This document shows, piece by piece, positions 14,357-48,200 of a stretch of 57,266 nucleotides of DNA; the stretch's first letter is position 1; each line of letters starts with the position of its first letter. The notes beneath the pieces were generated by a model. That model was not told the DNA's origin. It saw only the letters and a program-made list of their open reading frames with translations, and did not search any database. Source of the DNA: a virus. The position numbers and the translations under genes were made by a program. The stretch is taken from the IMG/VR virus record IMGVR_UViG_3300020469_000055, positions 1 to 57,266 of that record. One strand, written 5' to 3'.

Positions 14357-16237
14357 TTAATCACTACTCTCAATATCTACAATTTCACAGCTATTACCAC
14401 TGCATGCAAAAGTCTGAGAGGATTTTGTATTATCTTCCTTCTCGTACTCGCTAAGACGAGACCAATCAATGTCCGGGAACATCTGACGACGAGCGTCGTA
14501 CTCCGACTTGGTAATCGCTTCATACGGAGCCTGCTTGTACACATGCTCACTACGAGGAAGGAATGACAGTCCCTGAGCAATATCCCAGTACTCGCCATAC
14601 AAGGCAGAACCAATTTCCATAAATTCCTCAGGACGATACTCAATAGTAACGGAGGGATTATGATCGGTCCAATGTTCTTTAATAAAGGCCCAGTCTTTCA
14701 TCATCTCCTTAGCAGAGCCACGAGTTTCTTTTTCTTCATGTCCAATGACAAATTCAAAGACATAGGTGTTGGCTGGATTATTAACACAATCTTCGCCTGG
14801 AACACCAGCGTCTACCATTAAATGAAACAGGGGATCCTTCTTATCACATCGAACTCGACGGATATAGTAAGGAGCATAACGATGGTGGATGCCTGAGGCA
14901 GAGTCAACAAGACAGGATACGGTGCCTGAAGGCTTAACCGTGGTAACTGCCTTTGAGGTTTCGATACCAAGCTTTTTAGCCCAGTATTTGTTGACCCTTT
15001 TGGCTTCCTTGCGAGCTGCTTGAAGCGTCTCTTCATGAAGTACCAGTTCTCGGTTATCTTGAATACCCGTCAGAGAAACACCCAGCAAACGCTCCTCTTG
15101 AGAGTTACGATTCCAAGCCTTTCTCAGATAAGGAAAGTAGGTGCAATTAGACTGGACCGTGCCAATAATCGAAGCAATTTCAACTCGCTTCATAAGATCA
15201 GTAGCGTCCATGCCGGGCCGTACCACGACCTCCGTCAGGTTACAGAACTGCATAGGTCGAAGAGTAATTTCACCACAGGGATTTGTTCCGAAGTTATGAT
15301 CAGCATCGCGATCGATTTCAGACGAGCAAGCCTGAGCGGCTTCACGATTGAAGATGCCACGCTCACCGGAGTAACTTCGGTAGATGCTGAGCCATTCTTC
15401 CATAAACACATCCATCTCGGGCTTGGTCGTGTAGACCGCCGAGTTGTTGGCAAGGGAACGGTAGGAGTGACTTTCCCACCAGTTCCCTGACTTGGCACGA
15501 GCCATCTCATGATCATCAAGATCACTAAGAGAGATCATAGCCGAGCGTCGTACGCCGCCAACGATAACAGAATTAGCAATGACACATGCCATGTCATGCA
15601 CTTCAATAGGGCGTAGGTTGCGGCCACGAGCATTGTAGATTGCGCTTGTAATAAAACGAAGACAATCTTCCAAGGGTCCCGGCCCACTAGCACGTCCTCC
15701 AAAAGTCTTAAGTCGGTCTCCAGCAGGACGAATCCCACTAACATCCCAAGTGGGATGAACCCCACCCATAAGACTAGACAATAATGCTTTAACAGCATCA
15801 GCCCACCCAGCCTTAGAGTCTTTTACCTGAATTACAACCGACTCATCTCGGGTAATATCTTCAGGAATGGGTGACCATTTATCAATAACTCTCCGCTCAA
15901 CAGAGTAGCCAACTCCAGTACCATTCATTAGAACGTACAAAAGCTCGGCCATCGCGATGGGAGAATCAAGCTCTAGATATGAGCAGTTGTAAACACAAGT
16001 ATTGTCCCTATCAGCCGCAGAACCAGCAGTCATAAGAGCACGCATGCTCGGCATAACCTCAAGATTTAGGACAGCATCCCGAATATCAGAACGCTCTTCC
16101 AAAACAGGTGCTTTAGTAAGCATCCAATCCCACCAGCGATTAACGGTTTCGGTCCAGTTTTCTCGTCTACCAAGATCATCCCTCCACCGAGCGTACTTGC
16201 TTTGGTGAATAAATGTTTGAAAAGGTGTCATTTGCAT
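14357..16237 (-). CDS. nrdJ: Class II (adenosylcobalamin-dependent) ribonucleoside-triphosphate reductase
   Basis: This 626-residue protein is of the monomeric RTPR type. Visible motifs are N-T-C-V-Y-N-C (first redox Cys, about residue 92), N-P-C-G-E-I (thiyl-radical Cys and catalytic Glu, about residue 318) with F-C-N-L (second redox Cys) after it, K-P-S-G-T-V in the middle, and a C-terminal C-S-G-N-S-C pair that re-reduces the active site. It converts ribonucleotides to deoxyribonucleotides using coenzyme B12 and needs no oxygen or partner subunit. GGAG precedes the ATG at 16237. It follows dUTPase and the phage promoter near 16.72 kb. The Lactobacillus enzyme is longer (739 residues), so part of the insertion domain may be shorter here. 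The phage depends on host cobalamin. Confidence 0.93.
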   Translation of the reverse strand: MQMTPFQTFIHQSKYARWRDDLGRRENWTETVNRWWDWMLTKAPVLEERSDIRDAVLNLEVMPSMRALMTAGSAADRDNTCVYNCSYLELDSPIAMAELLYVLMNGTGVGYSVERRVIDKWSPIPEDITRDESVVIQVKDSKAGWADAVKALLSSLMGGVHPTWDVSGIRPAGDRLKTFGGRASGPGPLEDCLRFITSAIYNARGRNLRPIEVHDMACVIANSVIVGGVRRSAMISLSDLDDHEMARAKSGNWWESHSYRSLANNSAVYTTKPEMDVFMEEWLSIYRSYSGERGIFNREAAQACSSEIDRDADHNFGTNPCGEITLRPMQFCNLTEVVVRPGMDATDLMKRVEIASIIGTVQSNCTYFPYLRKAWNRNSQEERLLGVSLTGIQDNRELVLHEETLQAARKEAKRVNKYWAKKLGIETSKAVTTVKPSGTVSCLVDSASGIHHRYAPYYIRRVRCDKKDPLFHLMVDAGVPGEDCVNNPANTYVFEFVIGHEEKETRGSAKEMMKDWAFIKEHWTDHNPSVTIEYRPEEFMEIGSALYGEYWDIAQGLSFLPRSEHVYKQAPYEAITKSEYDARRQMFPDIDWSRLSEYEKEDNTKSSQTFACSGNSCEIVDIESSD

Positions 16238-24557: not shown

Positions 24558-24787
24558 AAGTTCGTTCTTTCTAAAATCATTACTTTAGGAATTTTGTGAA
24601 TACTAGAACACTCTTCTTCACCAATTGTATCGGTAAGGACCATGTACGAATCAGTTTCATAAATTACAAAACCAACTGTTGACATAACAGGAGGAGATTC
24701 AAGAGAGAAGTTTTCCGCCTCTTCATGGCTAACCCACCCTGGTCCACCATGAGACGATGCATCTATCCACTTAATATGCTCAGGCAA
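24554..24787 (-). CDS. Small protein coupled to RNA polymerase, probable TTG start
   Basis: The frame is open from within the RNA polymerase gene. The best start is TTG at 24787, overlapping the polymerase stop (TTTGCCTGA), giving 77 residues. The N-part contains W-I-D-A-S-S-H-G-G-P-G-W and the centre V-G-F-V-I-Y-E-T-D-S-Y, with the feel of a small beta-rich conserved phage protein. No Shine-Dalgarno site is obvious, so translation likely depends on the polymerase message. Confidence 0.55.
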   Translation of the reverse strand: MPEHIKWIDASSHGGPGWVSHEEAENFSLESPPVMSTVGFVIYETDSYMVLTDTIGEEECSSIHKIPKVMILERTNL

Positions 24788-27284
24788 AGAGGTATTCTGC
24801 TTCGAGAACAGCTTCGATTCGAAGAGTTCCTCGCTGCTCGTGGAGCCTTGCCGGGTGTTTGTCTGGGAGACGCTCTCCCACGAGGTTTTCGGCACGCTTG
24901 CGGATGAGATCAAGTTGGTTGACCGAGTGAATTTCATAGAACTTTTCCTTCGTGGTTTCTTTAAGAATAGAAATACTATTTGCAAGAGTACCGAATGAAT
25001 CGTGAATCATACTAAAGAACTCGATACCCTGCTGAATTAAACAATACATAACAAGTGTCATGTGAGCAGCGTCAAGAGAATGCACAAAATTAGGAGGCAT
25101 TGCTGTTAAGGCTTTATCACAATCATACTCATCAGTGTAATATCCAAACTGAAGCTGAAACTTCTTATCAAACAAACGAACTTGAGAAGGCTTGGGTTTT
25201 CTTGGGTTATACTCATTGATAACAAGAAAACCAGAAGGAGTAATCCAGCTCATAGGCTTATCTATTTCTCCTCCAACCCAACCACATAGAAGCTGAACAT
25301 ACTGCTTTCCGTGATTGCAATGTTTCATAACTTGTGCTTTAGAATCACAAATCAGGGAGCCCATTTCATTTGCTGCCTGATGCATGTTTAGCCCCATCGA
25401 CTCACACCAGTCTAAATGCTTTTCTTGTAACTGATACTGTCTAACTGAGTGATCAGTAATCCCATAAGGATCACACATCACCGAACGCTTTACAACCTTA
25501 CGAGGAATAACTCCTTCCCAATGACTGAGAAAGTGATGTCTCCAATCGCTTGGATTCTTAATGCACATCGACGTACAACCATCGGCTACTAGTTGATATA
25601 CATCAGCGGGTTTATCCTGAGGGGTAAGATTTACTTCAGGTCCTACTGTTTCATCTCTAGTCATCGCAGCCCAGTGTTGAATACCATTACAGGAACCATC
25701 AATCTGAACAGGAACTTGAGTAATCCCATGATTGATTGCATCCATAAGATCAAAGATAGCTGCTAGTCTTTGAAAGCTAGCATTTTTCTTTGGGGCATCA
25801 TCTTCCCAAATACTTGTGGTTCCATGAGGATCAGCACAAACACTAATCCAATCCTCCATATGATCATCAACATATTTAACTCGATCGTTGAATGAAACCT
25901 TATCAACACCCATAAGATTAGCTAGATTAACCTTAATCCAATACAATCCATTTGCGGTTACCTGTTCTGGTTCTGCCGCCATGAGCAAAGCTTTATCTAG
26001 GTCTGCTCCCTGAGGATGCAAGAGGTAGGAGTCGGAATAATATCTACCGCGAAAGTCGCAAAAGTAAGCATGCCAAACAACAAAGGGTTTAATCTTGTAT
26101 GCCTCATGCATACGAAGCTGCATCTGCAAACGAGATGCTTCCGACTTTGCCCACTTGGCCCACCGCCTTGACTTCTCATCAAGCCACTCATGCTTCTCGG
26201 TCTTGCTTCCTTTCTCAGGATACTCTGACATATTTTCTACGGTTGTTTGATCATATGAAGGAATAGTTCCTGTCTCACGACCAGACTTCCATAGGTCATT
26301 TACAACATCTAAGACCTTATTATTAATTCGCCACTCGGTTTTCTGCAAAGTGTTGATTACAGTCCTAGTCATATGAGACATGCAAGAAGGGTCAACCTCT
26401 CTAGCAATATCATTGTCCCCTAAACTATTAGGACTATTCTTAGTATAGGCTACCTTTCTAAGACGACGTATTGACCAGTCCATTAATCCACCAGTTTCAT
26501 CTTCGGTGTGATCAACAGGACGACAAATCATAGGCATTCGATTTGGCATAAGGCGATCTCTAAACTCGTCAATCCTCGTCATCATATATTGTATGAGTTC
26601 ACCTGGTAATGTGATGTATACCTTTTCGGATACCTTAGTCTTCTTGGCCGAGATTTTCTTTTCATATATATTTTTCTTAATGAGAAGACCAGAATCAATT
26701 GCAAGCCGAATCATGGCATGGCCAAAGTTATCCTTCTGTCTAGTAGTAGCCCTGGGAAGAGCGTTAATCTTCTTTGAAAAAGCACGTCGTCTCTTAGGGT
26801 TCCAGTTCTTAAAGTACTTAGATTGATATCGATAGAAAAAAGGATCTGCCTTTCTTGCCTCCAACCAAGAAGCAACTTCCCATGCTTTTGTAGCAATATC
26901 ACGAGAAAGTATTTGGGCCGTAGGCAATGACCATGTATTCAAAGAAGGATTGTCTTCGGCTGCAACGGCTGAGTTATAAATACTTTCCATTGCTGCTCGA
27001 ACTACAAGATATGCTAATCTATCAGGCCCAAGATTCCAGACTTGAAATAACCATTCAGGAAACCGAGCATTTTCTGTATTAGCAACCTGCTCTAAATACT
27101 TAGACATTCCTTCTGCAAACCAAACAGCATGTTCATCAACCACATCATTGAAGGGATCATTATATTCAATAGGCTTTTGGTTGAATCGAACTAGGATATC
27201 TTCCTTCCACTGATCTTCTCGTGCGATCTGAAGATTTCTAAGTTTTTCTTGTTGTTCTTTTGTATATTTATCCCATTGATACAT
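24780..27284 (-). CDS. Single-subunit DNA-directed RNA polymerase (T7 gp1-like)
   Basis: This 834-residue protein (T7: 883) has all catalytic motifs: motif A D-G-S-C-N-G-I-Q-H-W (about residue 528, metal Asp), motif B K-R-S-V-M-C-D-P-Y-G-I-T (about 600, with the conserved Lys and Tyr), and motif C M-I-H-D-S-F-G-T (about 760, second Asp). The C-terminus ends Y-L-F-A, like the FAFA foot of T7. It would transcribe middle and late genes from the TTGACTAAAGTATAG promoters, one of which lies in front of this gene and could give positive autoregulation. Confidence 0.97.
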   Translation of the reverse strand: MYQWDKYTKEQQEKLRNLQIAREDQWKEDILVRFNQKPIEYNDPFNDVVDEHAVWFAEGMSKYLEQVANTENARFPEWLFQVWNLGPDRLAYLVVRAAMESIYNSAVAAEDNPSLNTWSLPTAQILSRDIATKAWEVASWLEARKADPFFYRYQSKYFKNWNPKRRRAFSKKINALPRATTRQKDNFGHAMIRLAIDSGLLIKKNIYEKKISAKKTKVSEKVYITLPGELIQYMMTRIDEFRDRLMPNRMPMICRPVDHTEDETGGLMDWSIRRLRKVAYTKNSPNSLGDNDIAREVDPSCMSHMTRTVINTLQKTEWRINNKVLDVVNDLWKSGRETGTIPSYDQTTVENMSEYPEKGSKTEKHEWLDEKSRRWAKWAKSEASRLQMQLRMHEAYKIKPFVVWHAYFCDFRGRYYSDSYLLHPQGADLDKALLMAAEPEQVTANGLYWIKVNLANLMGVDKVSFNDRVKYVDDHMEDWISVCADPHGTTSIWEDDAPKKNASFQRLAAIFDLMDAINHGITQVPVQIDGSCNGIQHWAAMTRDETVGPEVNLTPQDKPADVYQLVADGCTSMCIKNPSDWRHHFLSHWEGVIPRKVVKRSVMCDPYGITDHSVRQYQLQEKHLDWCESMGLNMHQAANEMGSLICDSKAQVMKHCNHGKQYVQLLCGWVGGEIDKPMSWITPSGFLVINEYNPRKPKPSQVRLFDKKFQLQFGYYTDEYDCDKALTAMPPNFVHSLDAAHMTLVMYCLIQQGIEFFSMIHDSFGTLANSISILKETTKEKFYEIHSVNQLDLIRKRAENLVGERLPDKHPARLHEQRGTLRIEAVLEAEYLFA

Positions 27285-27371: not shown

Positions 27372-27638
27372 TCATGGATGAAGAAAGGTGGTTAAGGTAT
27401 TGTCGCTCCACTTAAGAGGATTCACTTTTGAATCTGGAGTTTCAGAGAGTCCAACAAAACGATTAACAACCTGTAGTGCATCTCCTGTTCGATCAGCCTC
27501 TCTTCCCCTCTTAAGCCTTAGCTTTACATTAACACCCAAGCCCTTGTCTCTAAACTTCAGTGCTTGCTTAGCCTTTCTTTCAAGATCATTAGAAGCAATG
27601 TTAACCGTAAGATTAATTTCCTTAGTTGTCTTAGCCAT
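27372..27638 (-). CDS. Translation initiation factor IF3 C-terminal-domain-like protein
   Basis: This 88-residue protein has a GGAG site before ATG 27638. It aligns end to end, almost without gaps, with the C-terminal domain of bacterial IF3. It has K-E-I near the start, then N-D-L/K-x-x-x-A and K-F-x-x-K-G, V-x-V-x-L-R-L-K-R-G-R-E-A (IF3: T-x-R-F-R-G-R-E-M), a helix ending V-V-N-R, and a final strand F-L-H-P (IF3: V-L-A-P). The IF3 N-domain and linker are absent. In bacteria the isolated C-domain binds the 30S platform and carries most IF3 activities. A phage copy may therefore alter start-site choice or ribosome recycling, by replacing or competing with host IF3. It is the last gene before the RNA polymerase promoter. 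The fold call is by eye. Confidence 0.8.
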   Translation of the reverse strand: MAKTTKEINLTVNIASNDLERKAKQALKFRDKGLGVNVKLRLKRGREADRTGDALQVVNRFVGLSETPDSKVNPLKWSDNTLTTFLHP

Positions 27639-27888
27639 TCATATTCTCCGGATCACTAAAACCATCATCAAAACACCCATCAGAATCATCTACATCAATC
27701 ACAACATCCATCCAATCTTCATTAAAATCATGAACTACTCGAAGAAGTTCTGTCAAAAAGTTTACTTCCTCGGTAAAAAGCATCTTATCTTTCTCGAGAA
27801 AGCACATTCTAATTAAAATATCATACAAATCTTCGTAAATATCTGCGGTGTAAATGCCCTCTACATGATCGGACTCAGGTTCGTGCAT
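27631..27888 (-). CDS. Acidic small protein, unknown
   Basis: The likely start is ATG 27888 behind GGAGG, giving 85 residues, very rich in Asp/Glu with a D-V-V-I-D-V-D-D-S-D tail. The stop overlaps the IF3-like start (ATGAATGGCTAA). Acidic early phage proteins often mimic DNA or bind basic host proteins, but nothing specific is visible. Confidence 0.6.
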   Translation of the reverse strand: MHEPESDHVEGIYTADIYEDLYDILIRMCFLEKDKMLFTEEVNFLTELLRVVHDFNEDWMDVVIDVDDSDGCFDDGFSDPENMNG

Positions 27889-28237
27889 CAAATGCGGCCT
27901 CCAGGGGATAAAGAAAGTTTCGATTTGCAGACTCAATCATATCATCTGTTCCAATGCGGTCAGTAACTTTAATTGTACCACGAAAGAACTTTTTGTCAAG
28001 CAAAGAATGAGCAATTAGCTTTTTATTAGACCAAAGAGTAACAATAAGTGAGTCAATATTTCTAAGATACTCAGCATTAGCATCATAGATATCTTGAATC
28101 TTAGAAGGAATTCTTTTGTAATAAACTTTTATATTTAGAATCGCTCCTTGAATCTTTGCTTCCTCAATCTTAGTTTCAAGATACTTTTCATATGACATTG
28201 CTTTATCAAGTTTAGGATGTCGATATTTATTTCGCAT
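27875..28237 (-). CDS. Unknown protein, 120 residues
   Basis: GGAGG precedes ATG 28237. A basic N-terminus is followed by a coiled Y-L-E-T-K-I-E-E-A-K segment and a mixed alpha/beta remainder. It overlaps its neighbours at both ends. No motif is recognised. Confidence 0.65.
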   Translation of the reverse strand: MRNKYRHPKLDKAMSYEKYLETKIEEAKIQGAILNIKVYYKRIPSKIQDIYDANAEYLRNIDSLIVTLWSNKKLIAHSLLDKKFFRGTIKVTDRIGTDDMIESANRNFLYPLEAAFDART

Positions 28238-28742
28238 AGAATGAACCTCCAGTTGAAAGCCACCAAGGACGGCACCTACCTTTTTTATAACAAAACCATT
28301 CTTTTGTTGATTTGTCTAGTGTATAGTAGTTACGATAAGCCTTAACCGTCATGGAATGCTTGTACGGATCAGGCATACATTGAGGAGGTGCCTCGAACTT
28401 TGTATGCAAAATTGAAGGGGGAGCATAGTCCAGCACGTCACTAAATTTTCTCCACGTCAAATGCTCCTTGCCATATCGATATCTGTACTCATCACACAAT
28501 GCACAGAAGTGATCATACAACCAGTCATAGTTCGGCTTAGACGAGCGAGCCCACACCGCTGAAGGGTGATTCTTATGCGTGCTCTTGTAAAGTCCTACCT
28601 CGTCGCCCCAGTCGTCTCCATCAAGTTCACGATGAGCGGTTGATAGTAACTGAGCAGACTCAAGAATCATCTTGACTACATGCTTGTCACATTGCCATTG
28701 AGCAGACATCTTAGGATCTTCGTCGAGATAAAAAATATTCAT
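28227..28742 (-). CDS. Conserved phage protein with CDKHVVKM motif
   Basis: This 171-residue protein begins M-N-I-F-Y-L-D-E-D-P, followed by C-D-K-H-V-V-K-M-I-L-E-S-A-Q-L-L-S-T-A-H-R, a pattern I recognise from many marine phage genomes without an assigned function. Conserved Cys, His and Trp residues throughout (for example H-K-N-H-P and W-x-R-S-S-x-x-N) suggest an enzyme or metal-binding protein. The C-terminus has a W-F-C-Y-K-K-G-R-C cysteine pair. Confidence 0.75.
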   Translation of the reverse strand: MNIFYLDEDPKMSAQWQCDKHVVKMILESAQLLSTAHRELDGDDWGDEVGLYKSTHKNHPSAVWARSSKPNYDWLYDHFCALCDEYRYRYGKEHLTWRKFSDVLDYAPPSILHTKFEAPPQCMPDPYKHSMTVKAYRNYYTLDKSTKEWFCYKKGRCRPWWLSTGGSFYAK

Positions 28743-29747: not shown

Positions 29748-29952
29748 TATAACTTTCCTTTTCTGCGTCTATATAAAAGTCGTCTCTAGTATAGTTTCCA
29801 TTAGTATCAGCATTTCTGTATTTAGTGTAATATTTATTTCCTCCTCGTTCTTCCGTTTGAGACTTTGTAATTTTTTCAATTGCTTGCTCAATATCTTTAA
29901 CGGTTTTTCGAGCATTTGCTAAAGCCTGATAGAGATCTGTTAATGCTTTCAT
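29737..29952 (-). CDS. Small coiled-coil protein, 71 residues
   Basis: ATG at 29952 overlaps the ThyX stop (ATGA). The N-half is a coiled coil (residues about 3-33), and the C-half is polar and Tyr/Asn-rich. The function is unknown. Confidence 0.6.
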   Translation of the reverse strand: MKALTDLYQALANARKTVKDIEQAIEKITKSQTEERGGNKYYTKYRNADTNGNYTRDDFYIDAEKESYNDR

Positions 29953-30644
29953 TTCGAATCTTCCTTTGAATTGAATCCAAAAAGTGCTGCACTAGCCATT
30001 GGAAAGTGATGATTAAGAATGGACTGAACCGCATTTGCATACTCCCAGCACTCTGCTTGAGCATGGTCATCACCACGAAGATCGACAAAGCGATACCAAG
30101 CCTGAAGAGAACCAGTCCAAATCCATTCAGTCATAGTAGCCTGAGGAAGGAATGCTCGTGCTTGCTCGGGGCAGATACCCCTTTTAATAAGTTCTTGATA
30201 TCCAAGAGAAGCATCAATATATTTTTCTCTAATATTATCAAGAACTATTCCCTCAACAGGGATTGCTCCTTCATGAACAGATCCTTGCTTCATATTGCCA
30301 GGACGCTTTCTAAAAGACTCCGGAAGCCAAAAAGATGGTTTCTCATCAACATATCGTCTGCTTACTTCATTCCAAGCAAACCCAACAACATGCTTCTGAA
30401 ACTGCCTAGCAATAAACATAGGAGCCGTAAAGTGCAGGGTCATTCCAACATGAGCAAAGGGTGACCAGTGATTATGATTAGCAAGATAACGAAGAAGCCT
30501 AGAATTCTGATCTTCACTAAACTGACTTGCCTCCTTGTGAAAAGAGACTCGAGCAGCATCACAGATATCCATATCAGTTCCATTGTTACGCTTGTGAGTA
30601 ACTGGTCTAATAATTTTATGTACCCATCCATCAGTAATTTTCAT
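29949..30644 (-). CDS. thyX: Flavin-dependent thymidylate synthase
   Basis: This 231-residue protein starts at ATG 30644 behind AAAGGA. The ThyX signature appears as Q-K-H-V-V-G-F-A-W-N-E-V-S-R-R-Y. It is the phage-type variant of the RHRxxSxNExSxRY motif, with K-H replacing R-H and one extra residue. H-W-S-P-F-A-H (FAD/folate region) and the C-terminal R-x-x-L-P-Q-A-T-M-T and L-R-G-D-D-H-A-Q segments are also typical. It makes dTMP from dUMP using FAD and methylene-tetrahydrofolate, using dUMP supplied by the phage dUTPase. Confidence 0.93.
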   Translation of the reverse strand: MKITDGWVHKIIRPVTHKRNNGTDMDICDAARVSFHKEASQFSEDQNSRLLRYLANHNHWSPFAHVGMTLHFTAPMFIARQFQKHVVGFAWNEVSRRYVDEKPSFWLPESFRKRPGNMKQGSVHEGAIPVEGIVLDNIREKYIDASLGYQELIKRGICPEQARAFLPQATMTEWIWTGSLQAWYRFVDLRGDDHAQAECWEYANAVQSILNHHFPMASAALFGFNSKEDSK

Positions 30645-30666
30645 AGTAGATCCTTTCAAAAGTGAA

Positions 30667-30750
30667 TAGCCTCGGAGGGACTCGAACCCTCAAGACCCTA
30701 AGGTCGTCAGATTTTAAGTCTGATGCGTATGCCAATTCCGCCACAAGGCC
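30667..30750 (-). tRNA. tRNA-Leu, anticodon UAA
   Basis: The 84-base class II tRNA has acceptor GGCCTTG pairing with CGAGGCT (G-U pairs), anticodon loop CTTAAAA (anticodon TAA), a long variable arm and T-arm GAGGG-TTCGAGT-CCCTC. The discriminator is A and no CCA is encoded. Confidence 0.95.
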
Positions 30751-30758
30751 AGTGTTAA

Positions 30759-31448: not shown

Positions 31449-31479
31449 ATGATTCTCCTAAAGTAAATGTGAATTGAAA

Positions 31480-31552
31480 TGCCCTCAGCAGGACTCGAAC
31501 CTGCGACCATCGGCTTAAAAGGCCGCTGCTCTACCAACTGAGCTATGAGGGC
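31480..31552 (-). tRNA. tRNA-Lys, anticodon UUU
   Basis: The 73-base tRNA has acceptor GCCCTCA/TGAGGGC, D-arm AGCTCAGTTGGTAGAGC, anticodon loop CCTTTTAAG (anticodon TTT) and T-arm GCAGG-TTCGAGT-CCTGC. The discriminator is A and no CCA is encoded. Confidence 0.97.
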
Positions 31553-31564
31553 AGTATTAAATTG

Positions 31565-31826: not shown

Positions 31827-32266
31827 TAGTCTGCTCCTTCTCTGAACAATTTGTTATTAGCATCTGCTTCATACTTTAGTTCAAGACGACGCTTCATTTC
31901 TTCATAACTTACAGGATCATATTGAAATCCCATTTTGATCCCACAAATATCCATAAGAATATTTGGACTAAGAACCTCTCCAACAATCATACAAGCCTGA
32001 GCCGCTCGGTATACATCATTTCTGCTCCACCATCCATACTTATCTCCAATATCATACCACCAAAGAATGTAAGCAATCCAATATTCGATGTCTTTCTTGG
32101 TACACTTTGAGGCATAAATATAGTCTAGTTGATCTTCGTTGTCAAGAGGAATAGTAGAAACATCCAACTCGATGGAAGATCCATCGGAAATAATCTGAAG
32201 GATAACATTACTCTCAATTTTGTACTTGTAAGTTGCTTCCTCGAGATAATAAAAAGATACTGTCAT
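31826..32266 (-). CDS. Unknown protein, 146 residues
   Basis: A mixed alpha/beta protein with an aromatic A-Y-I-L-W-W-Y-D centre. Its start overlaps the end of the lysozyme-like gene. It is soluble in appearance, and no motif is recognised. Confidence 0.65.
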   Translation of the reverse strand: MTVSFYYLEEATYKYKIESNVILQIISDGSSIELDVSTIPLDNEDQLDYIYASKCTKKDIEYWIAYILWWYDIGDKYGWWSRNDVYRAAQACMIVGEVLSPNILMDICGIKMGFQYDPVSYEEMKRRLELKYEADANNKLFREGAD

Positions 32267-32661
32267 TAATTCATTTCCTTTCGAACCTTAGTCCAGTAGG
32301 CAACCGTTGCCTTTTTCTTGTAACCGTTCGGCCCACCATTCCAGATGCGAGCCATGTCTTCGTTAGTAGGTATTCGTCCGAGACGCTTTTTAGTTGCATA
32401 CCTTTTCATATAAGCATAAAATACACGTTTGGAATATTCAAGATCAGCACATTGAGAATAGTTTCCACCAATGTTAGCATCTTCCCAACAACCTCGATGT
32501 ATTTGAAGAGGACCAAGAGCAAGATCATTATCACCACGAATAGGACCAATTCTTCCTCCTGTTTCCACGGCATGAATTGCATCAACAAGATCCTTTCCAC
32601 TTACATTAGTTACGATAACTAAGAGAAGTAGAAGTGCTACTATCGTTCTTGGACATTTCAC
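32266..32661 (-). CDS. Secreted lysozyme/transglycosylase-like protein
   Basis: The best start is GTG at 32661, seven bases after AAGGA, giving 131 residues. The upstream in-frame ATG at 32691 has no proper site. A signal peptide is clear (basic M-K-C-P-R, then A-L-L-L-L-L-V-I-V). The mature part begins with A-I-H-A-V-E-T-G-G, the catalytic-Glu helix of SLT/lysozyme-like folds, followed by L-A-L-G-P-L-Q-I-H and later W-N-G-G-P-N-G-Y. It would cleave peptidoglycan in the periplasm, either as a Sec-exported or SAR-type endolysin. It overlaps the lipoprotein gene by 56 bases and is far from the holin candidate. Confidence 0.8.
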   Translation of the reverse strand: MKCPRTIVALLLLLVIVTNVSGKDLVDAIHAVETGGRIGPIRGDNDLALGPLQIHRGCWEDANIGGNYSQCADLEYSKRVFYAYMKRYATKKRLGRIPTNEDMARIWNGGPNGYKKKATVAYWTKVRKEMN

Positions 32662-32788
32662 TTTGAATTCCTTCCGTAACAGAATAAACATCCTGTGCCA
32701 GTCCCTTCATTGTATTACAACCAGCAAAAACAAAGGCACATATAAACGCTCCTCCAATAATAATAATCCACTTGCAGATAAAGTCCAT
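32606..32788 (-). CDS. Small lipoprotein, entericidin-like
   Basis: This 60-residue protein starts at ATG 32788 behind AAGGA. A hydrophobic N-terminal segment ends in the lipobox F-A-G-C (lipidated Cys at residue 24), followed by N-T-M-K-G-L-A-Q-D-V. The C-N-T-x-x-G-x-x-x-D-V pattern is typical of entericidin-type bacteriolytic lipoproteins. Overlap with the lysozyme-like gene also suits an o-spanin. Either way it would act at the envelope. The short polar tail is Ser/Thr-rich. Confidence 0.65.
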   Translation of the reverse strand: MDFICKWIIIIGGAFICAFVFAGCNTMKGLAQDVYSVTEGIQSEMSKNDSSTSTSLSYRN

Positions 32789-39208: not shown

Positions 39209-42200
39209 TTAGTTAAGTCGATCAGCCAAGCCCTCACTGGGAGAGCGTGGGGCTGACGGCTCAGGGCGTTGAAGAAGAGGAGGAGCTTTAGACTCCTGCT
39301 TCTTTTCGACTGGTTCTTCTTCCACGGGAGGCGGATTAGGAATTAATCGATCATCTGGGTAGTCAACTTCACTCCAGCCATGAGGCTGCTGAGCTGATCC
39401 CATCCACTTAATGTAACCTAAATCTTCCAGAGTAGGATGGCTTAGATAAGGAATATTACGACCTGATCCTGCTGTCATTGCAACAGAAGTAGCCTTCATT
39501 CCTTCTCTAAACGGAGCCTTTGAAAGCTGGAACGGTAAAGCATTAAATGGTAAAATTTCTCCAACAGTTTCAGCAACATCTGAAAAGGCAGAGCCTAAGC
39601 GTTTTTCTGCACCCGGACCACCGCCAACATATGATCCAATATTTCCAGCAAATCTAGAAAGACGACCATAAGTTTTCTGTACCATTGCAACAGCAGGGCT
39701 GCTAAATGGCCTAACCGGGAAATTACGCTCAGAGCTTTGCATAGCTCGGAGTACTGTATTGCCTACAATATCTCGCATATAAGGACCTACGCTTCCGAAT
39801 AAAGGACTGGAAAATCCGTAGGTTGCAAGAACTTCAATAACCTTATTCATGTCTGGCATGGTTGTAAGGTTTTCCATTGCTTGCTTTCTACGATCTTCGT
39901 CTTCTTTAAATAGAACCGCCTGAGCATTTCTATTAATATATTCAAAAGCAGTAAGGCTAGTTAAAATACCAGCCGTCATCATGGGTCCGCGAGCACGGAC
40001 ACCATTGCCAACCAGGGCTTGATAAGCCGCCATCGGATAAGACAGCATCTGGAAAAGCATGTCAACCAGAGGGTTCATTCCCTGGAATCGCATGGTGCCA
40101 CGAAGTTCAGGAGACATTTCCTGAGTTACAAACATAATATACTGATTAAGGGAGGGAAGAATAGAATCTTGAACTTTCATTCTATTTCTAGCAATATCAG
40201 AAAATTCTAGAGAAACTACTCCAGAATTAGCATCACTAGATCTCCCAGCAAGAGATTCTCCTAGCTCATTAAGATCAAGCTCTCGTCCAGCGGATCGAGT
40301 GTTTAATCCCGATGCAGACATAAGCTCTTCCATAATTCCAGGTCGAAGTAGTCCTGACTCAGCAGCATACGTCACTAAAGTTTGAGGAATACCCAACTCT
40401 CGAGCAATTCCCTGAATTTGTTTAAGGGTAAGCTCACGACCAGAAATTTCTTTAGAAAGAACAATTAGCTTATCTGAATGCTTAAGCAAAGTAGCTTTTG
40501 CCTGATTAGCCGCAACAGTACGAACAGCATTAGTAACCGGAAGCATGCCAGAAGCAAGACCAGTTAAATCTGCCGTAGCGCCTGTGAATGCTTCTACGCC
40601 ATCAGCCAACCTTTTAAGCCAACTAGGATCAGAATGTCCTTCTTGGGCTAATCCAGATCGAACATTATTTACATGAGTCTTCAACCTTTCGGCGACAGAT
40701 GTCATAAGCTCACCATCTTCCATAGCATCACCACCCGCACCAAACTTAGCCATAGAGCTAGATCTAAGGTTTTGTGTGGAGTATGCTAAGTCCTCAATTG
40801 TTTCTTTCATAATTCGTTTATCTAAGCCAAGAGAAGACATAAACTTTTGAACAGGCTTATACTTAACAGCTTCACCTCTAGCAGCATCTAATAGCGAGCC
40901 AGTAATGATTCCGGTATTTCGGATTAGCTTAAATGGATTTAATCCAGAAGTACGAAGAATAGTCATAGGAACTTCAACAAACAGAACCGACATTGCAAAC
41001 TTTGCTCCAAGAATAGAATAAGCAATGTTTTGAGTAATGCGGCTTGCCTGTGAAAACTCACGAGTACGCTGCGGATTAAATCCACGAGCACGTAAGTAAA
41101 GCTCGCGAAGGCTTTCCATATACTGGCTAACCTCACGATCATAATCCCTTTCAGTAATAGTTCGTTTCTTTCCTGTAGTATCGGTCTTAAGATTTAAGGT
41201 AAGAGAATTTTCAATCTCGTCAAACATATCGCTCATTGTTGCTCCCTTAAATCCAAAAAGATCATTAATAGCTTTTTGAATTCGAGTAGATGCAAGATGA
41301 GTATCAGCATACCGAATAATATGTTCCATTGAATTTCCTGCCTCAGCAAACAGGCTTGCTAATTCTTCTCCGCCCTCTCGAATAGAACCATCAGGATTAT
41401 CAAAATCACTAATGTTAAAAGTTCTATGGGGCATTCGAATATCATCAAGAGTTTTAATCTTAATATTTAAGTCACTGGGATTAGCCATATGACTATGCTT
41501 AAAGTTACCACCAGCATGATCAAGATAATCATATGCAGCAACTCTAAGAGGAGCCATAACTTTTCGTCCAACTTGCTCTAATCCTTTCATCCACTGTTCA
41601 GAGAAGATGTCCATATTATCGCCTTTAACGGCACTGGCATATAACTCAGCCAGCGTTCCTTTACCTGCAAGTCGATGGGCCTTATTAAAAGAACCGGCTT
41701 CAACCTGAGCTTCATTCTTTCTAGCAAAGTACTCATCAAGAGCATCAATAATATCAGACGGCTTTTTAGGATCGGGATCATCACCTGCACCGGCAGGAGA
41801 TTTTGGCGGCTTAGAAGGAGGAGCACCATCACCAGCATCAAGAGGCTTACGTGAACGGAAAGTAATTTCACTATTAATTTCATTATAAAGCGTACGCTCT
41901 TTAGAAGAAAGACTTCCTTCTTTACTAAGTTTTGCTTCCAAGCTAGAACCAATTTCAATTAACTCATCATCACTAAGTTCAGCAGGTTTTCTAGGAGCTG
42001 GTCCTTCCATGCTTTTAAATAATGCTTCGTTCGAAATATCATCTCGTTCTAACCTAGCCTGTGCTTCCTCTTCATACCTAGCTCTAAGATCTTTATCGCT
42101 AGGTCTGCGGAAATCTTGATTGTCACCATCAGCTAAACGCTGAGGACCAGTACGTCTGGTTTCAGCAATCTCTTCAGCCCGAAGACGAGCCTGTGCTTCC

Positions 42201-45200
42201 TCTTCATACCTAGCTCTAAGCTCTTTATCACTAGGCCTACGGAAGTCTTGGTCGTCACCATCAGCTAAACGCTGAGGACCAGTACGTCTGGTTTTAGCTG
42301 GGGCTTCGTCCGCAGCCTGCTCAGGAATATCTCCTGAATCCATAGACTTAGTAAGCTCTTGTTCCTGCTGACGAGCTACAAAGTAATCTTTGGCTTCTCG
42401 GGCAAACGAAACACCCTCACCTGGATTAGGCATATCCCAATCTCTAATGTTTTTCATAAACATCATGAGATCATCATAACTATCTACAATTTCATCAAAC
42501 TCTTCTTGGGTCATTCGAGTATAACCAGGAACACCTAAGAATTTAGTATCGGCAGCATTGTCATATTTATTGACAGTAGACTTAAGGGTAGCTTTAGTAT
42601 TACCAGCCGAAGTCTCAGCAATGTCATCAGCTACAGCAGGATGAGTAGTAACAATTTCATCTAGCTCTGCTTCTTCTCGCTGAGCTTTAAGTTTTGCTAA
42701 CTCATTTCTACCAAAAATCTTATCTTTTTCTGAAACTTCATCAACAACAACATTAGTTAATTTTCTAATATTTTTTAAATCAAAAACACCCTCGCTATGA
42801 TTATGGGTTCTAACCTGAGGTTCAGTTAATCCGGTTTCTTCCGCAATAGACGTAACTTGATTGTCTGTTAACTTATAACCACCTCGACCACCTGGCTCAA
42901 GTGTTCCTTCTCTAGATCTAAGAGCATCCATAAACTTTCGAGCATTTATTAATTTAACAGCCGCTTTTTGTGCCTCCGGAGAGGTAGAGTGCAATCCTGA
43001 ATCAATTAATACTGAAAGTTCTTCATCTGCTTCAGATAGATTTCTTAATACAACTTCATCAGATTTTGCAGAGCTTAAACTAATTTCAGCACTTTCGCCT
43101 CTTTCAACAAGCTTAGATCTTCCTGTAATCTGATTAAGCTCTTTTTCCTCAGCATTGGTTAAAGCTTTTCCAGACTTTTTCTTTTCAGATAAAATATCTT
43201 TCCTAGCTTTTTCTTCTTTAGTAATTCTGCTTTTAACTCGAAGTCCTTGTTCATCACCACTAGGACCACGTTTTGCAATAGTAAGAGTTTGATTTTTAAC
43301 TCCATTATTAGCAGCTAAGAAGATTTCATCTTGACTCATACGCCTTCCATTAATAGTAGGCCAAGCTTCGTCCTTAAACAGCTTTGCAAAAAGAACTTCA
43401 GTAAAAGCTTCAAGCTGTTTACTTAGAGTTCCATTTAACTTTCTACCATTAATAAATCTTTCGGTAACAGCATCAAGAGTTTCTTTAAGAAAAACTGGAT
43501 CACTAGCCTGCTCTTCAGTAGGCTCAGCTTGTTTACCGGACTTAGAAAACATTCCCTTAAACTTGCCTTTTTTCGGATCAGCAGGAGTTAAAGTTTTGTC
43601 TTCTTCCGTTACAATAGTTTCGCCCTTTGCTTTGACGGAATCTTCAATATCTGATCGCTTTCCCGAAACAACACGAGAAGGCTGAACCTTTCCGTCTTTA
43701 TCGGTTGTTCGAATCTTTAGAGTAACCTCAGGTTCTTCCTTAGGCTTAACAACCGTAACTTTTTTAGTCGTTGTTGCCGAAGAAGAAGTAGAAGTAGATG
43801 CATTGCTAACATCTCGAGCTTCAGTCGGACGCCAAGCCCGGCGATCAACATCATAATAAATCCTATTATTATCAATAAGATCTTGAATATGCTTTTCCAT
43901 TTCCGCTCGATTAGTTGCAACTAAACCACCGCCCCGCTGAGCGGTAATCATTCTTTCTGTAGAAGAGTCGATATTTGCAGCCCTAGCTTCAGGACCAGTA
44001 ATGGTTTCAAAGTTTCGAATAAACCAACCATTTTCATCTCCTACTCCAGAAGTATTTCGTTCAATTTCTAAAGGACGACCATTTACAGTAGTAACCTGAT
44101 AGGGATCACCATACTCATCTTTCTTTCGTTTAAAGTTAAAAGAAATTTTTTTAGGAGCCGCAGCTTCAGTTGGATCAGCCTCAGCAACCTTAGCCGCAGG
44201 CTTTTCTTCAACTGCCTTAGAAATAGGAGCATCTCTTACTCCAGGATCAACCTTAGTCTCAAGCCTTTGAAGAGTTTCATTGATCGAATCAATCTCTTGT
44301 TCAAGCTTAGTTAGCTGATCTTGAAGATCCACTTCTTTTCCTGCCACTTGAACTTTATTTCTCTTTTCGCTTAACTCCATTAGCTTACTAATTTGACTTT
44401 CATCCATATCATCTGGAGAAAGGTTTTGTAACTTAACAAAAGAATCATATTCTGACTCATTAAGACCACCCCGTCTTGCTAGTTCAAGAGCAAGATTAAG
44501 CTGTTCTTTTTTAGTAATCAATGATTTCTTATCCACAAGATAAGCAGCATCTCCATATTCATCAATCTTTTCTGCTTCAGTAATTCCAAAGGTTCGTTGA
44601 AGACGATCAGCAGGAGCGTCATCGGCAGAAAGATCATACCAGCTTTTAACTCCTGCTTTAATTGCCTTAAACTTTTCTTCTCCTAAAATCTCATAGCCAA
44701 TACTATCAGATTCTTTTTTAAGAATTGAAATATCTCCAATTAGTTTTTTAAAGAACTGACTAAACTTATGAAGAAATTCTTTAAGAGGTCCATTTTTCAT
44801 AGCAAGCTGATTACGTACAAGAGAAATTTCAGCTAAAGCAGCCGCAAACTCATGAACATTTGATAAGGCATATTCTACATTTCCAATACCAGCCCGTTCA
44901 AACAACCGACGAATTTCGTTTTCGCCATTTTTAGTTTGAACAAACAAAGCCTGAATAGTTGCCTGCATTTTTGCTGGAGCAGATAAAAAGCTTAGGTGAG
45001 CAGTTTCATGCACAAGAATTGATGCAACATTAAGAGCATCGCCATATTCAGTTTTTTCAAGCTCACGCAAAAGACTTAATCCAATTGTTCCTCCTTCAAC
45101 AGGACGACCATTGAAATCTTTTGTGCTCCTAGCAATTCCTAAAGTTCCTCCGTCTACAACAGAATCAAGATAAGTAAAAGTCATCCCCATCATTTTATGA

Positions 45201-48200
45201 GGATCAACATCAACAAAAGCCAGCATTACAACTCTAGCGGCATCTTCATCAAGAAAACCTTCTGCAATCAAATTGTCTAGTTTATTCAACAGGGATTCAT
45301 GTCCCTTTGATAATCCAGCATAAGACTCTCGACTAGAAACATACTTTAGCTTTTGATTCTGAGACATAGGCTTGCGCCGAAGTTTTACTTCTCCCGAAAT
45401 CATTTGCTCTCTAACTTCACTAACAATAGCATATCCTCGAACAGCCATTGCATTATCTAAATCTATTAACATATCCTTAATAGTAAATTCAGGATTTTCA
45501 AGATCATACAAAGCTCGTTCTTCAGCAGACATGCCATTTAACTGGTTATATGCTCGACGCATTTGGTTCATAAAAGAATCGGTATCAGCAACAGCATGTG
45601 CTACTCCAGTTGCAGTAGCAGCATCTACTGGATTTCTTCCTAAAGGTAAACCAAAATGATTTCCTCGCATTTCAAAATAATTATCTTGGAGTTTAGTAAT
45701 ATTTCCAGGATCTCGACGAATCCGTTCAATAACACCAAGCGATCTAGCAACCGCAGATCCAGTACCAGCTTCTCCGGTATCTAATCTTTTAAGACCCTCG
45801 TAACCTTCCTTAATTACGCTTTCAGCATACTTAATACTATCCTCTAAGTTTCCAATCCAAAAGGGAGAATCCTCAGGAACAATAAAGGGTTTATTTAAAA
45901 CAGGTTTACCCCCTGCTTCAACAACATCATTCTTTACGATTTTAATAAACCCAAGTGAATTAAGAACGTCTTTATCTAGAGTATTATTACCAGATAAAAG
46001 TTGATTCGTTCGGATTTGAACAAAGCCATCAACAAATTGTTTGGCTCGATCTGCACTTAATCCACCTCGAATCATGTTTGGAATATAACGAGCCGCATTC
46101 GTATTTGCAATAGGAGCACCAGCTTCGGCCATTTCATCCAAAGCTTTCTGCATGAAATTGGTATAAAGCTTTTGTACATTTTTAAGCTCAGTCTTTAGAG
46201 CATTAACATCACCACCAAAAACACGAATCATTTCTTCCGGCAATACGTCTTCATCAATATCCCCGATAAGCTTACCAAGCTGACGAAGCTTAAGAAAAAG
46301 GAAATCAAATTCTTTAAATGAGGGGCCGCCTAAACGAACTTTTAATCCATTGATATAGTTTACATAAGGCAAGGCTTCTCGGGAAGCTCCCTCAACAATT
46401 GCTTCGATTGACATAAAGTCAGTAGAGTTACTGTACACGCGGTTATTAATATGCTGTCCGGTAATAAAGTTTGAAAACCCACGAACAATACGGTTTCGAG
46501 ATCGGAATAATCTAGCCTGTTTAATAGGCCAGTTAACAGCGGCGCTTATGTTTCTTTCAATAAAATCACCAATAGAAGTTCCTTTAAAGATCGTACCAAG
46601 CCACCAACGATCCGTAGATCTTTCTCCAACCTTTAAAGCATCAGGCGACTGACTAAGAATAATTTTATCAACAGCATCCCTCAGCGCATTAGCCTTAAGA
46701 GCACTATTACGAGCCTTAAATGGAATATCATTTAAAACCTGAGCTGATAATCTTTCAAATGCTTCATCAACATCGATATTGATTCCAAGCTTCTTAGCCA
46801 GATCACGATAAATTCCTTTTCGTCGAGTAATTTCCTGGCTAATCTTTTTAGTAAAAGAAGACTCGTCTAATTTTGCGCCAGAAATTTTATTAAACTTTCG
46901 CCTAAGATTAGAACGAAACTTAGTAAAGTTACGGACATTTTGAACAACACCTGCTTCGTTTAAAAACTTACTGACATTAAAGGAGGACTTTACCGCATCA
47001 TATGCTTCAAGACCTTTACCCTCAGCAATTTGTTTAATAGCCTTCTTAATATCAGGATACCTTGCATTTAGTTTTGCAATTTCTTCTGCATTACCTACAA
47101 GCCCCTTATACTCTCGAGTATACTTCATAATCTGTTTGGCAGAAACACCAAGATCTAAAGCAACTCGAATTGCTCTTTCGTTTCGTAAAAGAGAAAAAGC
47201 ATTTTCAACTTTAAGCAAGTCCTGAAGAAAAGAATCTTTTCGAGCTTCAGTTCCTCGAGAAACAATATCATCAAGTCGCTTATTAAAAGCAAGTGTATCT
47301 GCTTCGCTTAGTCGCTTAGAGTTGTTTAGAATTTTTTGAGCACCCCTTAAACTTTTTTCATCGTTGATTCGAGGAATAAGTTTAAGTAGTTGATTTATTT
47401 CAGCTCTAGTTGCAGCAGGTTGACCAGGAATTCCAGAGTCTTTAAGTTTATTTAAAAGAGCTTTAAGAGTTACAGCTTCTTTGTCAGATAAAGCTTGTCG
47501 CCCAGATCCTCCTACAAATCTTTTAGCCGTATCAATTCCCTTAGACTTAAGAGTTCGATCTAGCATATCTAATCTTTGCTGAGCAGTTTCAGCTCCATCA
47601 GAAGCTAAATCCTTAGCTTCTCGGAAAACAGCTTGGATAATAGTATCAAACTCTTCCGTTCCAATTTGCGCACCAGCACCAAGCTTTTTTTGAATTCCAA
47701 AAACTAAGTCAACTGCATCAGCAGAAGAAAGACCATACTTCGCTAAAGTCTCAGAAGAAAATAAATCTTCAATAGTTTCGCTAAGATCTTCGCCTTCTTT
47801 TCGAATAACTAATAAAGGAATCGTTTCAGCTAAAACATCCTTAGCTTCTACTTCTCCTCTATTTAGTCGAATAGCAAGTCCTTGATTTTCAATATTAGAG
47901 AAAATCTGAGCGCCCTCAATTTCAGGAACTGTTGCTTCTCGTTCTGCTAAACGATTGAGGCCACGAACTTTAGCTGCTTCACCTAATGCTCCGGTATCAG
48001 CAACGTAGTCTGTCATGCGAGTAGCAACACGACTAGTACCACGAAAGGCAGGACCAATTCGATTAATCCCACCAGCAATACCAGCACCGCCAATAGCACC
48101 CATACCTCCATAAAGAGCCATGTTAGTATAAACACCTGTAAAGTCTAGCTCGGTTCTAGCACCTTCCATAATCAATGAAGTTTGTCCACCAATAGAAGCT

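Follow-up and report, generated by a model that had tools for sequence, protein, structure and literature searches.

The IF3-C gene and its surroundings

The window, by which we mean the whole 57,266-nucleotide stretch of DNA analyzed here, comes from a T7-like phage. On its minus strand, at 27372–27638, it carries a gene for an 88-aa protein (MAKTTKEINLTVNIASNDLERKAKQALKFRDKGLGVNVKLRLKRGREADRTGDALQVVNRFVGLSETPDSKVNPLKWSDNTLTTFLHP) that was identified as a stand-alone IF3 C-terminal-domain protein (IF3-C) on the basis of Pfam, AlphaFold with Foldseek, and a PDB profile search. The earlier note that drew attention to this ORF had given no strand for it. The gene begins with ATG, preceded by a GGAG Shine-Dalgarno (SD) sequence, and its first 8 nt also belong to the preceding ORF. 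An 87-nt gap separates it from the next gene downstream (24780–27284, minus strand), which encodes an 834-aa T7-like single-subunit RNA polymerase (RNAP; Pfam RNA_pol, E = 2.4e-79; PHROG 414 RNA polymerase, 1.5e-147).

Two further minus-strand ORFs adjoin the gene upstream. The overlapping one (27631–27936), taken from the ORF list, is small and acidic, with an uncertain TTG start (27891 or 27936), and searches of Pfam and PHROG returned no match to it. In one related contig (L002), an 83-aa ORF with an acidic C terminus precedes IF3-C and is a possible counterpart; none is present before IF3-C in two others (L003 and L005). The second ORF (27875–28237) encodes a basic protein of 120 aa with no assigned function that is co-conserved with IF3-C in all of the relatives; homologues with 27 to 38% identity lie just upstream of it in L002, L003, and L005. 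Its predicted model has a pLDDT of 72. Its Foldseek matches were all insignificant; some were to dsRNA-binding domains, a weak resemblance (E ≥ 0.07, TM about 0.3) that amounts to no evidence.

Beyond RNAP, the same strand encodes a metallophosphoesterase, a Gp2.5-like single-stranded DNA-binding protein, a RusA-like resolvase, a T7-type primase-helicase, DNA polymerase A, a dNMP kinase, an exonuclease, and head genes; it also holds a match to B12-dependent (class II) ribonucleotide reductase that is weak yet significant (14357–16237, minus strand). The RNAP shares only about 27% identity with those of named phages, and the terminase is about 38% identical to those of Limnohabitans and cyanophage podoviruses. 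An ORF of 3489 aa (39209–49678, minus strand), unusually long given the size of the phage and with no Pfam match, is probably a virion or internal protein.

The minus strand upstream of IF3-C holds several other recognizable features. Close to IF3-C lies a match to pyrimidine dimer DNA glycosylase (28227–28742; Pfam, 1.1e-7), and L005 and L006 have a similar protein at the corresponding position. A thymidylate synthase (phrog_85) is encoded at 29949–30659. tRNA-Leu (UAA) at 30666–30751 and tRNA-Lys (UUU) at 31479–31553 sit among the small genes, and a Destabilase (lysozyme-like) domain match in the small-gene region (32266–32691; 7.9e-8) marks a possible lysis protein.

Domain identity of the 88-aa protein

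The 88-aa protein is an IF3 C-domain. Its sole Pfam match was IF3_C (PF00707), with an E value of 2.6e-10 and a score of 40.5 bits, above the curated gathering cutoff of 34.8 bits. Residues 5 to 88 aligned with model positions 3 to 85 of 86, which bears out the whole-length alignment claimed in the earlier note. Three distinct relatives also scored above the cutoff (42 to 63 bits). When a profile of the four-member family was searched against PDB sequences, only IF3s were recovered at E ≤ 0.01, with 2m71 as the top match over the full length (9.6e-10). The AlphaFold model of the protein (pLDDT 83.4, pTM 0.70) had the predicted secondary structure E5-10, H16-31, E35-41, H47-64, E76-78, and E81-86. 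All 18 Foldseek matches at E ≤ 0.001 were bacterial or mitochondrial IF3s or mitochondrial small-subunit entries, including the IF3-C structure 1tig (E = 6.9e-7, TM 0.81). The profile search and structure prediction that had been set as checks on the proposed identity thus yielded a significant match and an IF3-C fold, rather than a missing match or some other fold. The motifs named in support of that identity (K-E-I, K-F-x-x-K-G, L-R-L-K-R-G-R-E, and V-V-N-R) are all present, although the relatives do not conserve V-V-N-R.

A chance match to IF3_C was ruled out by the E values, the synteny in four relatives, and the fold. Likewise, the gene is not a degraded host infC or an artifact of assembly or of a prophage edge, since phage genes flank it on both sides and it is found in four other contigs.

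The N-domain is missing, as had been claimed from the sequence: neither the window nor the relatives gave a match to IF3_N (PF05198) even at E ≤ 10, which also excludes an N-domain hidden in another frame of the window. Membership of the NCBIfam infC equivalog (TIGR00168) takes an N-domain, a linker, and a score over the cutoff of 60 bits; the 88-aa protein scored 31.7 bits and matched model positions 85 to 167 only, the C half, and falls outside it. PHROG 9787, a profile of 168 positions, was matched only at positions 83 to 140 (E = 1.5e-5), leaving the N-domain part unmatched. By comparison, 195 of 200 Pseudomonadota genomes gave one IF3_C match each, and all of the matches listed lay in open frames of at least 173 aa. 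Because it missed the equivalog cutoff and matched only the C halves of PHROG 9787 and infC, the 88-aa protein is a member of the IF3_C domain family but not IF-3 proper.

Relatives and distribution

A C-domain-only gene of 82 to 98 aa lies directly upstream of a T7-like RNAP in each of the four related IMG/VR contigs whose sequence spans the site (L002, L003, L005, and L006), so that the reported placement of IF3-C just before the polymerase extends beyond the window. In these contigs, the RNAP that follows is 46 to 57% identical to that of the window; a fifth relative (L004) begins inside RNAP and does not cover the site. As the proteins of L005 and L006 are identical in this region, the family numbers four distinct members, including that of the window, to which the others are 38 to 53% identical. 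Identity is about 30% to cellular IF3-C and 16 to 35% to jumbo-phage IF3-C. The phage proteins formed one clade in a tree (support 0.98), in which the alignment is too short to place the origin of the family. The phage is a small one, and its single-domain IF3-C is conserved in the lineage.

The gene was not found in Palo, HTVC309P, or S2B, phages with an RNAP of this type, and IF3_C was absent from a more distant contig with a similar RNAP (G213; 264 bits). G213 is the only informative member of a set of 14 additional contigs, related through their terminase or DNA polymerase, in all of which IF3_C was absent, because 12 have no RNAP and one has only its end. A tblastn search of 50,697 phage records gave, among the matches inspected, only jumbo-phage or bacterial-type IF3s. 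No member was found when the family profile was run against GTDB genomes, a search limited by the short exact patterns of the profile.

Two Vibrio anguillarum prophage records (L026 and L027; MK672802 and MK672805) each have an annotated "translation initiation factor" at the prophage edge. This IF3 was rejected as a phage gene, as it belongs to the host thrS-infC-rpmI-rplT operon.

Residues retained and lost

The phage family was compared with 93 distinct Pseudomonadota IF3-C sequences, using E. coli numbering. K94, D106, K110, F117, G132, and R133 are identical throughout the family, and a basic residue is retained at positions 116 (K/K/R/K) and 131 (R/R/K/R). The basic helix is kept, as is the codon-facing R/K-G-R loop (E. 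coli 131 to 133), which reads RGR, RGR, and KGR, with RG(W)R in L005; the window protein has a one-residue insertion (K) just before it. In a cryo-EM series of the Thermus thermophilus 30S subunit, R123, G124, and R125 contact or lie near mRNA at the start codon, and R159 sits by the start codon and anticodon stem (PMC5037330). By our own numbering, these residues correspond to E. coli 131 to 133 and R168, respectively.

The hairpin residue R168, which is R in 93 of 93 cellular sequences, is N/S/P/N in the phage family. Also not retained across the family are R99, Y107, H137, and R147, which Pseudomonadota IF3s conserve. Loss of R99 and Y107 carries little information, because both vary in the IF3s of Geobacillus stearothermophilus and Campylobacter jejuni, where R168 is retained. 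The last hairpin, in which R168 sits in cellular IF3, has an invariant K-W specific to the phage family. Furthermore, the family exceeds E. coli IF3-C in net positive charge (+7 to +10 versus +4).

Translation starts of the phage

The earlier note had also supposed that many of the phage's messages have weak SD sequences and GTG or TTG starts. This did not hold: when the start with the best SD was taken for each gene, 54 of 55 had an SD match of at least 4 bases and 46 of 55 were ATG. Since picking starts by SD alone biases toward the presence of an SD, the leftmost start was considered as well, and 42 of the 55 genes already had an SD there (against a background of 22% of internal ATGs). Coupled starts are indeed common, with 23 of 54 lying within −20 to +5 nt of an upstream stop.

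Discussion

The phage IF3-C probably helps in the takeover of host ribosomes. In the explanation that we favor, and regard as evenly poised between right and wrong, an early IF3-C protein would occupy the IF3-C site of the host 30S subunit, block 50S joining, and, with its start checking impaired, shift initiation toward phage messages. Production early in infection is plausible from gene order. The protein would then bind the host 30S at the IF3-C site (the top of h44, h24, and h45), where it would block premature 50S joining and compete with host IF3. It would be expected to be weak at inspecting the initiator tRNA and start codon, because it has no N-domain, no linker, and no hairpin arginine (E. 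coli R168, T. thermophilus R159). On balance, more 30S subunits may be free, and these would initiate readily on phage messages that are abundant and carry good SD sequences.

Several published findings speak for this proposal. The premise that an isolated IF3-C is functional holds in vitro, where the IF3-CTD on its own performs every function of IF3, though with about 100-fold lower 30S affinity (PMC4611024), and a 30S-bound IF3-CTD clashes with H69 of the 50S subunit and blocks 50S joining (PMC11903750). A highly expressed phage IF3-C could therefore plausibly occupy 30S subunits and keep 50S off. Phage action on IF3 also has precedents, as the T7 gp0.7 kinase phosphorylates IF1, IF2, and IF3 (PMC6375957) and phiYS40 lowers host IF3 (PMC3594737). 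The affinity of the phage protein for the 30S may be low, because R99, Y107, H137, and R147 are not retained and the N-domain is missing too. In addition, as the phage's own starts are canonical, it has no obvious need for relaxed start selection, which counts against the explanation that we favor.

A broader version of this explanation is that a T7-like lineage evolved a single-domain factor that no longer senses initiator tRNA and that, during infection, takes the place of host IF3 on 30S subunits or competes with it there and reprograms starts, as a module with RNAP and the basic partner. We put this forward tentatively, as somewhat unlikely.

Alternatively, the protein could be an ordinary supplementary IF3, reduced yet fully competent, that adds anti-association activity and fidelity when the phage raises the demand for initiation. 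The in vitro activities of the isolated IF3-CTD (PMC4611024) would allow this, the predicted fold and the codon-facing R-G-R loop are retained, and jumbo phages carry full-length IF3 genes. We nevertheless think it unlikely, given that R168, invariant in the 93 cellular sequences, is missing from all four members and that the N-domain is absent.

Host shutoff is a further candidate role, in which a dominant-negative IF3-C would block host initiation or keep 30S from 50S. The position of the IF3-C gene, among small genes just before RNAP, resembles the early takeover region of T7-like phages; the loss of the codon- and tRNA-sensing parts and the higher net charge relative to E. coli IF3-C would also suit an inhibitor. 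Because phage messages use the same 30S subunits and SD-led starts, a global block would harm the phage unless levels were low, and this role seems to us distinctly unlikely. Least probable of all, and in our estimate very unlikely, is a repurposed RNA-binding domain acting with the phage RNAP or on phage transcripts and not on the ribosome: the adjacency to RNAP and to the conserved basic neighbor is invariant, as is the family-specific K-W of the last hairpin, and IF3 binds free RNA (e.g., MS2 RNA, with micromolar affinity, in competition with phage replicase; PMC8956599), but the 30S- and mRNA-facing residues are among the better conserved ones, and the gene is absent from the other examined phages with such an RNAP (Palo, HTVC309P, S2B, and G213).

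Whichever role it serves, the phage protein differs from known systems in several respects. The bacterial IF3 C-domain (PF00707; 1TIG, 2M71, and E. coli IF3 residues 84 to 180) is part of a factor whose N-domain and linker the phage protein lacks. The phage family also has an invariant K-W in the last hairpin and does not retain R168, R99, Y107, and H137. Furthermore, bacterial infC belongs to the thrS-infC-rpmI-rplT operon, whereas the phage gene, with about 30% identity, adjoins a phage RNAP.

In the literature searched, phage IF3 genes had been reported from jumbo phages only; examples are those of Vibrio phage 2.275.O, Klebsiella phages KP13-7 and RaK2, Agrobacterium phage Atu_ph07, and Sinorhizobium phage Phosso (PMC7824862, PMC7162821). 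These proteins (PHROG 9787) are likewise phage-encoded IF3 homologues, but they are 167 to 173 aa long, come from genomes of 346 to 490 kb, do not lie beside a single-subunit RNAP, and are 16 to 35% identical to the window family. The three that were scanned (Vibrio 2.275.O, KP13-7, and Hallingskeid; 168 to 173 aa) have both IF3_N and IF3_C, and those of Atu_ph07 and Phosso are of similar length. Since three of the five jumbo-phage IF3s examined are also without R168, with D or K instead (Vibrio 2.275.O, KP13-7, and Hallingskeid; L016, L017, and L019), loss of this arginine may recur in phage IF3s.

The T7 gp0.7 protein kinase is likewise made early by a T7-like phage and has initiation factors, IF3 among them, as its targets (PMC6375957). 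It modifies host IF3 as a kinase and is no IF3 homologue, so the analogy is one of function only. A natural C-domain-only IF3 that retains the loop facing the 30S and mRNA, without the N-domain and the hairpin arginine, offers a ready-made test of which parts of the factor serve subunit dissociation and which serve fidelity. It would also make a compact and readily studied example of a phage that targets translation initiation through homology, which T7 does through phosphorylation.
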